NCBI RefSeq assembly: GCF_002583555.1
Contig: NZ_BEGX01000045.1
Coordinates: forward strand, 9,020 to 73,019
Direction of reading: 5' to 3'
From: Pseudonocardia sp. N23
Lineage (GTDB): Bacteria > Actinomycetota > Actinomycetes > Mycobacteriales > Pseudonocardiaceae
DNA: 64,000 bases
Within the stretch, counting starts at the first letter, position 1, and every line of letters starts with the position of its first letter. Position numbers and translations under genes: made by a program. The notes beneath the pieces were generated by a model, which saw nothing but the letters and a program-made list of their open reading frames with translations, made no database searches and was not told the origin of the DNA. Below are positions 52,720 to 56,615 of this stretch, piece after piece.

Positions 52720-53700
52720 TCAGCTGGTGATGTCCTTGCGCTGGAACCGCCACACCGCGAGCGCACAGAACACGGCGGCGTAGCAGAACGCGGAGAACAC
52801 GCCGCGGGTCATGTCGCCCCAGTCGACGGTGGTGGACAGCAGGTCGGCCCAGGCGTTGGCGTAGTGCGTCGGCAGGTAGTCGCGCAGGTCCTCCAGCGCG
52901 GTGATCTGGTCGAGGATCTGGGAGACGATCGACGTCATCACCGCGCCGCCGACGGCGCCGAGCGGGGCGTCCGTGCTCACCGACAGCAGCAGCGCGAGCG
53001 CGGCGACCCAGCTCATGTTCAGCGCGAGGTAGACCGCTCCGAGCAGGACCCGGCCGACGGCTGTCCAGAACGACAGGGACTCACCGGTGGGTGCCACGAG
53101 GTCGCCGGCGCCGTACGCGATCGCCCCGACGACGAGCGACACGACGGGCAGGAGCAGCAGCGCCGCGAGCGACAGCACGCCGGCGACGATCGCCTTCTGG
53201 CGCAGCAGCCGCGCCCGCGGGACGGGCGCGGCGAGCAGGTAGCGCAAGCTCGACCAGCTGGCCTCCGACGCGACGGTGTCGCCGAAGAACAGCGCCACGA
53301 CGACGACGAGCAGGAACCCGGCGGAGGCGAACAGCGCGAACACCGCGAAGTTGGCCGCGCTGTCCTTCGCGAGGTCGACGAGGTTGACCGACGCGCCGGG
53401 CGGGCCGTCGGCGGCGAGGCTGAAGGCGATCCAGAGGATGACGGGCAGCAGCGCGACCAGTGCGAACGCGACCTGGGTGCGGCGGCGGCGCAGCTGGCGG
53501 ATCATCTCGACGCGCAGCGGCATGGTGCGGGCGACGTCGTAGGGCTCGGTGGGCACGGGCGCGGAGAACCCGCCGACGTGCCCGCGCCGGGTCGACGCCT
53601 CAGCGGCCTCGAGCGCGGTGCCGGTCCCTGATCCGGCGGCCGGCGACACCAGGGTGGGGTGCGGCGCGGTGCCGTTGGTGGTCGGGTCGGGCTCGTTCAC
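52720..53700 (-). CDS. ABC-2 type transporter permease
   Basis: 326 residues. A 65-residue hydrophilic N-terminus, then six hydrophobic helices: VEMIRQLRRRRTQVAFALVALLPVILW, the GDTVASEASWSSLRYLLAAPV coupling region, and AVMTSIVSQILDQI. Typical of ABC-2 export permeases. The GTG overlaps the stop of the hydrolase-ABC fusion as GTGA, so it is the channel partner of that ATPase. Confidence 0.9.
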   Translation of the reverse strand: MNEPDPTTNGTAPHPTLVSPAAGSGTGTALEAAEASTRRGHVGGFSAPVPTEPYDVARTMPLRVEMIRQLRRRRTQVAFALVALLPVILWIAFSLAADGPPGASVNLVDLAKDSAANFAVFALFASAGFLLVVVVALFFGDTVASEASWSSLRYLLAAPVPRARLLRQKAIVAGVLSLAALLLLPVVSLVVGAIAYGAGDLVAPTGESLSFWTAVGRVLLGAVYLALNMSWVAALALLLSVSTDAPLGAVGGAVMTSIVSQILDQITALEDLRDYLPTHYANAWADLLSTTVDWGDMTRGVFSAFCYAAVFCALAVWRFQRKDITS

Positions 53701-56615
53701 GGGGTCGCATCCTCTCCGACGAGCTGCAGGAACGCGTCCTCCAGCCTGCGCCGGGGTCCGGCGGACTGCACGCCAACCCCGGCGGTCACCAGCGCCTGCA
53801 CGGCCGCGGCCCGCGGCATGCCGTTGAGCTCCGCGTGCACGAGGGTGCCGTCGACGGCGACGTCACGGACGCCGTCGAGGCCGCCCAGGACCGCGGCGGC
53901 CTGCTGCGGCTCGTCGACGGTGAAGCTCGCCGCCCCGCCGCCCGCGATGATCTCGTCGACGGTGCCGTCGGCCACCACGAGGCCCTTGTGCATGACGACG
54001 ACGTGTGTGCAGGTCTGCTCCACCTCGGCCAGCAGATGGCTCGACACCAGGACGGTGCGGCCGTCGGCGGCGTAGCGGCGCAGGACCTCGCGCATCGCAT
54101 GGATCTGGGGCGGGTCGAGCCCGTTGGTGGGCTCGTCGAGCAGCAGCAGCTCCGGCAGGCCGAGCATGGCCTGGGCGATGGCGAGCCGCTGGCGCATGCC
54201 CTGGCTGTAGGCGCCGACCCGGCGGTCGACCGACGAGCCGAGCCCGGCGATGGCGAGCGCGTCCTCGACGTGGGCGTCGGCGGGCGGGCGGCCCGTCGCG
54301 GCCCAGTAGAGGCGCAGGTTGTCGGCACCGGACAGGTGCGGGAGGAAGCCGGGGCCCTCGACGAACGCGCCGATGCGGGCCAGCACGGGGGCGCCGGGGC
54401 CGATCGGTTCGCCGAAGGCGCTCATCGTCCCCTTGGTGGGCCGGATGAGGCCCATCAGCATGCGCAGCACCGTGGTCTTGCCGGCGCCGTTGGGGCCGAG
54501 CAGACCCAGCACCATGCCGGGCCGGACGTCGAACGACACGTCGCGGACCGCGGTGAACCCGCCCTTGTAGGTCTTGGCGAGGCCGTGGATCTCCAGCGGC
54601 AGTGCGGCCGGGTCGGGGGTGGGGGCGAGCCTGCGGCGCCGCAGCGACCGCGCGACGACCCAGGCCAGCAGCGCGCCGACCAGGATGACCCCGATGCCGA
54701 CGAGGTAGCCGACGGGCACGGTGTTCGCGGTGACGGCCCGTCCCGGTACCGACGGCAACGTCAGCGCGGCCGGGGAACCGGTGTCGGCGAGCCCTATCCG
54801 CCACACGGCGGGATCGTTCGCGGCGGCGTAGCCCTGGTCGGTGGTGCTGACCGAGACGAGCAGCCGGTCGCCGGCCTGCACGGGCGCGACGACGGCGGGC
54901 AGCGTGACAGTGACGGTCGTGGCCGAGCCGTCGGCGGGCACCGGGACCCGCATCGGCGCGACCGTCGAGCCCAGAAGGACGCGGCGGCCGTCGGCGGAGA
55001 GCGTGGAGATCTTGCCGAACAGCACGGCCTCGGGGCCCGCGGGCTGGCCGGGGGAGCGCGCGACCGTCAGGGACACCCGTGCCGCGCCGGCGAGCGTCGT
55101 GGACTCCGTGAACGGTTCGGTGCGGAACTGGGCGGACTGCCCGGGCAGCTCCGAGGTGAACGCGGAGAGCCTGCCCGCGAGGCTGCCGAGCGCCCCGCCG
55201 AGTCCGGGTAGCGACGTGATCGCCGCCGGGTTGCCACCGGCCGGGTTCACGACGTCCTGCGGTGCGCCGGTGAGGCCGAGCGTCCTCGTGGTGACGGGCG
55301 CGTTGCCGGCCAGACCGGGGTAGGTGTCGGAGACGATCGTGCGGCCGGTGGGGGTCGACCCGCCCGCGCGGACGCCGCTCTGCACGGCGTAGGCGAACCC
55401 GGACGTCGGCGCGGGGCCGGTGCGCATCAGGTAGTGGTCGAACCACTCGCCGATGTCGTCGCGCACCGAGGTGCCGGGGGCGCCGCCGTCGTGGCCGCCC
55501 GCGTACCAGACGACGCGCACGGTGCCGCCTGCCGCGGCGATCTGGCGGGCATTGGCGTCGGCCTGGTCGAGGCCGAAGAGGGTGTCCTGCTCGCCCTGGA
55601 CGATCAGGGTGGGCGCGGTGATCCGGTCGGTGACCGAGGCGGGTGACGAGCGGCGCAGCAGGTCGGCCGTCGCGGGGGACAGCCGCCCGGTCGTCGCGGC
55701 CTCGGTGTAGGCGGCGCAGACCTCGGCGGTGAACCGGCCGCACGTCAGCGGCGTGCCGGGGGACGTCCCTGGTGGTACCTGCGCCGACGAGCCGCTCCCG
55801 GTCGCCGGCCCGGAGCCGGTGGCGGCCGGGTCGGTGCTCTGCCCCGTCGTCGCGGTGGCGTCGTCGGACCCGCTGTTGCCGCCGCCCAGGACCGAGGCCT
55901 GCGCGGACTGCCCGCCCGTGGGTGCCGCGCCGGCGGAGAAGAACACGCCGGCCCAGCCGCGCTTGAACACGCCGTCGGTGCCGAACGTCCGCGCGGCGGG
56001 GGTGGCGCCCGGCGGCGGGGTGCCGGTGGCGTCGGGGAACAGCGCCTGGCCGAGGTCGTTCCAGGTGATGACGGGGGCGAGGGCGTCGACCCGCTTGTCG
56101 TAGCCCGCGAGCATCAGCGAGAGCGCGCCGCCGTAGGAGCCGCCGGTGACGCCGACGCGGGGGTCGCCCGGCCCGTCGAGCTGCACCTCGGGTCGCTGGG
56201 CGAGCCAGTCGACGAGGCTGCGTGCGTCGGCGACCTCGTAGTCGGGGGAGTCGAGTGCGATCTGGCCGCCGCTCGTCCCGAAGCCGCGGGCCGACCAGGC
56301 CAGCGCGACGTAGCCGCGGGCGGCGAGGTCACGGGCGTCGGCGTCGACGGAGGCCTTGCTGCCCCCGAAGCCGTGCGCGACGAGAACGGCGGGCGCGGGG
56401 GTACGGGCAGGCAGGTACAGGGTGGTGTCCAGGCTCACCGGGGTCCCGACGCCGGGGCCGCCGCTCACCTCGATGCGCTGCTCGGAGGTGCGGACGCCGG
56501 AGTCGCTCGAACCGCCGCGCGTGGTCGCGAACAGGATGACTCCTGCGGCGACCACGACGACGGCCACGACGGCGACGAGCGCGCGCGTACGCACGCTCCG
56601 AGGAAGTCGGGGCAC
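53697..56615 (-). CDS. secreted alpha/beta hydrolase fused to ABC transporter ATPase
   Basis: 972 residues in one frame. Residues 10-32: N-terminal signal anchor. About 45-430: X-Pro dipeptidyl-peptidase/CocE-type alpha/beta hydrolase, with HGFGGSK, nucleophile TGGSYGG (Ser160), LIVQGEQDTLFG and AGGHDGG as acid and base, plus a Ser/Gly/Thr-rich insert near 235-290. About 470-610: the beta-sandwich C-terminal domain of that family. About 628-650: a membrane helix followed by RSLRRRR. 674-972: ABC ATPase with Walker A GPNGAGKTT, signature YSQGM, LLLLDEPTNGLD and SSHLLAEVEQ. Topology predicts an outside hydrolase and an inside ATPase. A TAACGT box ends six bases before the GTG. Operon with the permease. 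Confidence 0.9.
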   Translation of the reverse strand: MPRLPRSVRTRALVAVVAVVVVAAGVILFATTRGGSSDSGVRTSEQRIEVSGGPGVGTPVSLDTTLYLPARTPAPAVLVAHGFGGSKASVDADARDLAARGYVALAWSARGFGTSGGQIALDSPDYEVADARSLVDWLAQRPEVQLDGPGDPRVGVTGGSYGGALSLMLAGYDKRVDALAPVITWNDLGQALFPDATGTPPPGATPAARTFGTDGVFKRGWAGVFFSAGAAPTGGQSAQASVLGGGNSGSDDATATTGQSTDPAATGSGPATGSGSSAQVPPGTSPGTPLTCGRFTAEVCAAYTEAATTGRLSPATADLLRRSSPASVTDRITAPTLIVQGEQDTLFGLDQADANARQIAAAGGTVRVVWYAGGHDGGAPGTSVRDDIGEWFDHYLMRTGPAPTSGFAYAVQSGVRAGGSTPTGRTIVSDTYPGLAGNAPVTTRTLGLTGAPQDVVNPAGGNPAAITSLPGLGGALGSLAGRLSAFTSELPGQSAQFRTEPFTESTTLAGAARVSLTVARSPGQPAGPEAVLFGKISTLSADGRRVLLGSTVAPMRVPVPADGSATTVTVTLPAVVAPVQAGDRLLVSVSTTDQGYAAANDPAVWRIGLADTGSPAALTLPSVPGRAVTANTVPVGYLVGIGVILVGALLAWVVARSLRRRRLAPTPDPAALPLEIHGLAKTYKGGFTAVRDVSFDVRPGMVLGLLGPNGAGKTTVLRMLMGLIRPTKGTMSAFGEPIGPGAPVLARIGAFVEGPGFLPHLSGADNLRLYWAATGRPPADAHVEDALAIAGLGSSVDRRVGAYSQGMRQRLAIAQAMLGLPELLLLDEPTNGLDPPQIHAMREVLRRYAADGRTVLVSSHLLAEVEQTCTHVVVMHKGLVVADGTVDEIIAGGGAASFTVDEPQQAAAVLGGLDGVRDVAVDGTLVHAELNGMPRAAAVQALVTAGVGVQSAGPRRRLEDAFLQLVGEDATP

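Follow-up and report, generated by a model that had tools for sequence, protein, structure and literature searches.

The window analysed here is a stretch of 64,000 nucleotides from Pseudonocardia sp. N23 (contig NZ_BEGX01000045.1), and the system under study is a pair of overlapping minus-strand genes within it, the first encoding a hydrolase fused in one chain to an ATP-binding cassette (ABC) ATPase and the second an ABC-2 permease (Table 1). Pfam models match the fusion protein in the order Peptidase_S15 (residues 59-192), PepX_C (467-601), and ABC_tran (690-830), with Pfam and model residue numbers counted without the start residue. In an AlphaFold model of the same chain (mean predicted local distance difference test score, pLDDT, 80.8; predicted template modelling score, pTM, 0.62), two helices bracket the hydrolase and its beta jelly roll, and the ATPase follows the second helix. 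The single-frame fusion and its coupled permease, both pointed out in a preliminary description of this DNA, were confirmed by the length of the frame, the order of the Pfam domains, and the overlapping permease frame.

Table 1. Features of the fused hydrolase-ATPase gene and the adjoining permease gene in the window
Feature	Position	Strand	Basis
Fused hydrolase-ABC ATPase gene	53697-56615	minus	Single unbroken 972-codon frame, GTG start
First membrane helix / signal anchor, residues 12-30	56526-56582	minus	Hydropathy and charge, N terminus predicted inside; model helix 5-31
Alpha/beta-hydrolase domain, about residues 40-400	55416-56498	minus	Pfam, AlphaFold model, PDB matches
Ser160, nucleophile in G-x-S-Y-G-G	56136-56138	minus	Invariant in 61/61 sequences
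Asp344, predicted triad acid	55584-55586	minus	Invariant in 61/61 sequences
His375, predicted triad base	55491-55493	minus	Invariant in 61/61 sequences
Low-complexity, length-variable insertion, about residues 232-288	55752-55922	minus	pLDDT <50, disordered in the model; alignment gaps
Cys292...Cys300 pair, likely disulfide	55716-55742	minus	Both invariant in 61/61 sequences
PepX_C-type jelly-roll domain, about residues 407-628	54732-55397	minus	Pfam; strands in the model
Second membrane helix, residues 637-655, predicted return of the chain to the cytoplasm	54651-54707	minus	Hydropathy and charge; model helix 634-661
ABC ATPase domain and C-terminal extension, residues 672-972	53700-54602	minus	Pfam; PDB matches
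Walker A, GPNGAGKT	54474-54497	minus	Sequence
Glu753 at the Q-loop position (E-loop)	54357-54359	minus	Glu in 137/138 by pattern, in the last (L078) by eye
ABC-2 permease, PF12679 (ABC2_membrane_2)	52720-53700	minus	GTGA, 4-base overlap with the fusion stop; model, NosY match

The same arrangement recurs across relatives of the window's host. The hydrolase part was matched in 53 of 60 sampled genomes, the window's own included (E 1e-20). Of the 35 further sampled members of the window's genus, 34 have such a match, which is confined to short or broken frames in three (G021, G024, and G030). Matches were also detected in 59 of 197 genomes sampled from the class (E 1e-25) and 19 of 246 sampled from the phylum (E 1e-35); for 15 of these 59, 11 of which were inspected, the only match was a solo-type frame. 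Sixty loci were fetched from the matches in the 60-genome and class samples and, as mostly long frames were chosen, do not provide unbiased rates: Walker A lay in the same frame in 58 of them, L096 having the signature motif only, and the permease adjoined the fusion stop in 59, the exception (L094) being a solo hydrolase. A permease match was likewise found beside the stop in 80 of 82 further loci. A scan of one genome per species, in which the hydrolase part only was aligned and the best 80 relatives were kept, offered a less selected test. Among the matches listed, 587 of 597 pattern matches encode a relative (i.e., at least 587 relatives), and 78 of the best 80 combine the fusion with an adjacent permease, so that the domain order which the preliminary description had proposed to look for in other actinobacteria is indeed found there. 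The remaining two are L179, where the contig ends inside the gene, and L178, a solo gene. These best 80 include members of Micromonospora, Salinispora, Actinoplanes, Geodermatophilus, Nonomuraea, Actinokineospora, Pseudonocardia, Kitasatospora, and Streptomyces, as well as an Acidimicrobiales bin.

Conservation extends to the junction itself. One genus was searched with the rear 612 residues of a family member, a query that begins in the hydrolase, spans the second helix, and includes the whole ATPase. A match across the junction (E 1e-100) was obtained in 57 of 61 sampled genomes, the query's own included, with a single site per genome, and 56 of these 57 frames were at least 873 codons long. 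This genus is probably Streptomyces, judging from its family members, which group with Kitasatospora (support 100/99). Both fusion and permease are also kept in two genomes of 1.3-1.4 Mb (L091 and L092), and a 4-base overlap between permease start and fusion stop was counted in 67 of 79 loci with a permease frame found, under the start-assignment rule of this analysis. Since relatives down to ~36% hydrolase identity encode the same order in one frame, with an invariant triad, chance, a sequencing artefact, and a one-off fusion are ruled out. The preliminary description had also allowed that homologues might always be two separate adjacent genes, and no such split pair was present among the loci examined.

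Two long-frame copies per genome were observed in G074 (L071 and L072) and G217, and a plasmid-borne fusion and permease on plasmid 10 of Tsukamurella tyrosinosolvens (L119, NZ_LR134452.1). The fusion protein of the latter (WP_232066410.1), the single annotated record seen, is named only alpha/beta fold hydrolase and is likewise followed by an ABC transporter permease, differing from the window's system in being plasmid-borne.

Both halves of the fusion retain their sequence motifs. Walker A, signature, Walker B, and H-loop motifs of ABC ATPases are all present in the family; the Walker A pattern matched 138 of 142 loci and, among those, Walker B was found by pattern in 137, the signature in 137, and SSHL in 129. 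Peptidase_S15 and PepX_C, the two hydrolase Pfam models, both match 34 of 34 family members. In an alignment of 61 sequences (the window and the 60 fetched loci, among them L094, which lacks the ATPase), the Ser160/Asp344/His375 triad and the Cys292/Cys300 pair were unchanged throughout, in agreement with the catalytic residues named in the preliminary description. The net charge is +4 on both predicted inside flanks of the helices of the window's fusion versus 0 and +1 outside, and both anchors are positive-inside in 117 of 139 sequences under a strict charge test. This pattern predicts a two-anchor topology with the hydrolase outside and the ATPase inside the cell, as had been proposed, and an oxidising outer location of the hydrolase would fit the conserved cysteine pair. 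Three sequences have a lipobox-like N terminus, clearest in L085. The segment that links the second helix with the ATPase is of variable length across the family, and the C-terminal extension of the ATPase is shortened in some members (L171, L173, L176, and others).

The hydrolase had been called X-Pro peptidase-like, a label that closer comparison did not support. By profile, the nearest solved protein is PaL lipase (E 1e-32), matched in three collinear stretches, two of them clear (the second in the jelly roll) with a weak one between. In a structure comparison limited to PDB matches ranked by Foldseek, PaL again came first (Z 33.2, 2.8 A, 451 residues, 24% identity), followed by cocaine esterase (Z 26.8) and X-Pro dipeptidyl peptidase, PepX (26.4 and 25.6), with cocaine esterase and the better PepX match tied. 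PaL (8yzn, 8yzo) shares the two-domain core, but its PDB entry contains neither a second helix nor a partnering ATPase or permease; this core recurs in cocaine esterase (1ju3, 3i2f) and PepX (1lns, 6nff) (Z about 25.6-26.8), neither of which has a transporter. The fusion displays the catalytic and PepX_C domains with the Ser-Asp-His triad of PepX (S15), along with the CocE/PaL-type layout of an alpha/beta-hydrolase followed by a jelly roll. PepX carries a further, N-terminal domain ahead of its catalytic core, which is not present here: only ~35 residues, mostly anchor, precede the core in the model, of which residues 33-624 were aligned with residues 144-761 and 152-793 of the PepX structures. 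Since PaL is the nearer protein in profile as well as in fold, and the chain is too short at its front to hold the extra PepX domain, an esterase or lipase is the likelier predicted activity than an X-Pro peptidase. The PaL of the PDB title is presumably the lipase of Pseudomonas alcaligenes, which is reported to cleave menthyl esters (PMC9902596).

The transporter half has the sequence features of an ABC-2 exporter, with its ATPase motifs and a PF12679 permease encoded alongside. The permease model (pLDDT 85) is nearest in fold to NosY (Foldseek E 1.5e-4, TM 0.51/0.61), with PmtCD as the next permease fold after the NosY rows (E 2.1e-3), while the ATPase lies near ABCA-type domains, NosF, and Rv1218c in sequence and close to NosF in fold (Z 28.1). 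NosDFY (7o0y, 7o0z, 7qba) is likewise an ABC-2 transporter with a dedicated outer partner, but NosD, a beta-helix, is a separate protein and no enzyme, whereas the ATPase here carries its partner, a serine hydrolase, in its own chain. No separate NosD-type partner was found for the fusion, the outer part being the hydrolase of the same chain and no third gene being conserved beyond synteny in 132 loci. PmtCD (6xjh, 9q2n), a peptide exporter, has a near permease fold, but its PDB entry is without an outer enzyme, and for the fusion system a peptide substrate would be conjectural. Among NCBIfam models, the ATPase scores highest with TIGR03740, the lantibiotic-protection subunit, at 165.2 bits versus a cut-off of 309.75, with the daunorubicin-resistance model DrrA tied (164.5 bits). 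Glu in place of the Q-loop Gln is a trait of lantibiotic-immunity (LanFEG) ATPases, and was found in 138 of 138 sequences. LanFEG systems, however, have two permeases and a lantibiotic gene cluster, whereas one permease lies beside the fusion, with no conserved neighbour beyond synteny and no conserved small gene found. The N-terminal cytosolic C39 peptidase domain of PCAT (C39) transporters was not found either, Pfam assigning S15/PepX_C instead.

The closest paralogues of the transporter lie in the same genome. Two further permeases match the window permease (34% identical) beside ATPases 45-46% identical, and both of these transporters (L002 on contig C155 and L003 on C56) follow a gene for an apparently exported, RseB/LolA-like protein with an N terminus that is hydrophobic by eye. 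For the L002 type, in which the conservation of the trio was checked, a relative of the upstream protein was detected in 22 of 31 genomes, and upstream protein, ATPase, and permease stand together in the best 20 of 20 loci (L230-L249), 15 of them from the window's genus. These trios share the Q-loop Glu and have their outer partner encoded directly upstream; this partner is a separate protein with no hydrolase match, whereas the fusion has an enzyme as partner, joined to the ATPase. In an ATPase tree, one branch (support 100/99) set off the 22 fused rows and another (98/96) the 12 trio rows, and both fell together with one further ATPase (L005), apart from three others (100/98); its outgroups were four long-branched rows, and L004 was left out as it failed the Walker B pattern. 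Since the closest kin each follow an RseB/LolA-like gene, an outer partner seems to be the norm for such transporters. Proteins of the RseB and LolA types deal with lipids or lipoproteins, which makes a lipid-like substrate the best guess for the fusion.

A split ancestral pair was not found among 20 more distant solo hydrolase loci, which gave no ATPase or permease match (E 1e-5), with two contigs ending within 1.6 kb downstream. A strongly hydrophobic stretch is contained in 16 of these 20 frames, for which start codons were not assigned. The solo gene L178, from a Geodermatophilaceae metagenome-assembled genome, retains the hydrolase (match 373-2181), the Cys pair, and the second helix, with no ATPase and 1.9 kb of contig beyond; on its sequence, it possibly reflects secondary loss of the transporter half.

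The neighbourhood was surveyed in the 132 loci left after a codon-bias filter removed 10 of 142 (L066, L074, L082, L085, L086, L091, L092, L095, L153, and L179), and no third gene was conserved beyond synteny. A PALP-family gene, which we read as threonine synthase, lies mostly downstream in 45 of 132 loci and a DUF3263 gene mostly upstream in 25 of 132, the PALP-family and other neighbour types resting on one representative each. A LytR_C protein is encoded directly before the fusion in 10 of 132 loci (for the LytR_C and DUF3263 context, see L195:6286-7812 and L168:6091-6486), and these two neighbours suggest a possible envelope context. Based on the recurrent PALP, DUF3263, and LytR_C neighbours, the locus looks like a vertically inherited core region and not a biosynthetic cluster. 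The conserved small gene for an exported substrate that the preliminary description had envisaged nearby was found neither in this survey nor by clustering 3441 frames of 20-120 amino acids, taken 2 kb upstream and about 0.9-2.9 kb downstream of the fusion. The widest of the 278 resulting clusters (28 loci), which comes from the opposite strand, looks like a shadow frame of some conserved gene, and among the 25 of 278 clusters listed the only clearly hydrophobic one is the permease tail. In the window, a gene for a DUF6918 protein (52111-52662, minus) lies downstream of the permease gene in the same orientation; only 2 of 142 other loci have one close to the pair. A second hydrolase gene, for a prolyl oligopeptidase / DPP-IV-like S9 peptidase, lies upstream of the fusion (58341-60446, minus), and some members of the genus have, as judged by eye, a similar gene close to their fusion. 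A promoter scan returned no promoter-like site and two weak terminator-like sites.

We tentatively favour the reading that this is an ABC-2 exporter whose outer partner, an ester hydrolase covalently fused to the ATPase, acts on a lipid-like envelope substrate during its extrusion. Two copies of the fusion would pair via their ATPase domains under two copies of the permease, with the two hydrolases standing on the outer face above the exit path. The permease would most likely extrude a lipid-like or otherwise ester-bearing envelope compound from the membrane, and the attached enzyme would hydrolyse this compound as it emerges. The tether would hold enzyme and exit in a fixed ratio, and the ATP cycle may also move the enzyme through the tether. 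The earlier idea that hydrolysis and export are tied is thereby retained. The fusion, its conservation, the adjacent permease, and the intact motifs are observed; the topology in cells, the oligomer, the substrate class, and any mechanical coupling are predictions.

Several observations weigh against this reading. Conservation of the catalytic site indicates an enzyme in use and says nothing on its action upon an exported compound. A lipid substrate is suggested by a single nearest enzyme, the next profile matches after PaL being small hydrolases without the jelly roll (MHETase, E 3e-28), and by weak matches of the proteins encoded upstream of the paralogous transporters, i.e., 20.5 and 18.5 bits to MucB_RseB versus a cut-off of 22.3 (E 4e-4 and 1.7e-3) and, for L002 only, 20.9 bits to lolA versus a cut-off of 112. 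The order within the fused, trio, and L005 set is not settled by the tree, in which the trio ATPases are a candidate sister group of the fused ones. The strict charge test is failed by 22 of 139 sequences, 21 on account of the second helix and two on account of the first, and the peptide exporter PmtCD is nearly as near to the permease as NosY. Substrate, hydrolase activity, and transporter complex are, moreover, all predicted.

The nearness of NosY can also be read another way, since NosDFY works on its outer partner: here too, ATP might open, close, or move the outer hydrolase, which would work on an envelope polymer or lipid with no transport at all. A covalent tether via one helix suits such force transfer, and the long variable insertion of the hydrolase could serve as a lid. 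We nevertheless consider this mechanotransmission somewhat unlikely, as the fold of the exporter PmtCD comes almost as close, and the length variation between second helix and ATPase would make for a poor rigid lever. Export with processing, or removal, of a membrane-active peptide, in an immunity or bacteriocin-like role, appears unlikely, even though the lantibiotic-protection model heads the NCBIfam matches of the ATPase (with DrrA tied), the Q-loop Glu recalls the lantibiotic group, PmtCD has a near fold, and the hydrolase domains bear the family names Peptidase_S15 and PepX_C. The leading NCBIfam match reaches 165 bits versus a cut-off of 310, no conserved small gene was seen among the clusters listed and no third gene beyond synteny, and the N-terminal domain of PepX is absent. 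The self-immunity role raised in the preliminary description is likewise disfavoured: the fusion occurs in 57 of the 61 genomes sampled from one genus, persists in two genomes of 1.3-1.4 Mb, and shows synteny with housekeeping genes, unlike the immunity gene of a producer.

A broad ester-cleaving drug pump, the enzyme of which would inactivate expelled drugs or intercept those outside, could account for the cocaine-esterase-like fold, the tied DrrA model, and the presence of the multidrug pump Rv1218c among the ATPase relatives. The gene is, however, usually single copy and syntenic with housekeeping genes, such as the PALP-family gene, and we regard detoxifying efflux as quite unlikely, although the Tsukamurella plasmid copy and the two-copy genomes are exceptions to the single-copy rule. 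Finally, hydrolase and transporter may have unrelated jobs and share a common anchor only, as the solo relatives with no adjoining transporter could suggest, in particular L178 with its second helix and Cys pair but no ATPase. This seems very unlikely, given that fission or loss is rare in close relatives (78 of 80 complete, with one truncated at a contig end and one solo) and that the fused ATPases form one group (support 100/99), from which the link between the two halves seems to be kept by selection.

All parts of the system belong to known families, yet their covalent arrangement across the membrane was found in no open-licence paper, and no description of a fused hydrolase-ABC ATPase system was found in the open-licence literature; the plain database name hides the fused system. 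The presence of the fusion in 57 of 61 genomes of one genus, of its hydrolase in 34 of 35 further genomes of the window's genus, and of both genes in two genomes of 1.3-1.4 Mb makes a basic role at the actinobacterial cell surface likely. It is possible, if rather doubtful, that these are conserved actinobacterial export machines with an outer serine hydrolase in the ATPase chain, in which each ATP cycle would deliver and cleave, or gate the cleavage of, an envelope lipid, and which would represent an undescribed core step of envelope biology. As one chain joins predicted outer catalysis to inner ATP hydrolysis, the question of whether ABC machines drive outer enzymes becomes directly testable by point mutations in one gene.

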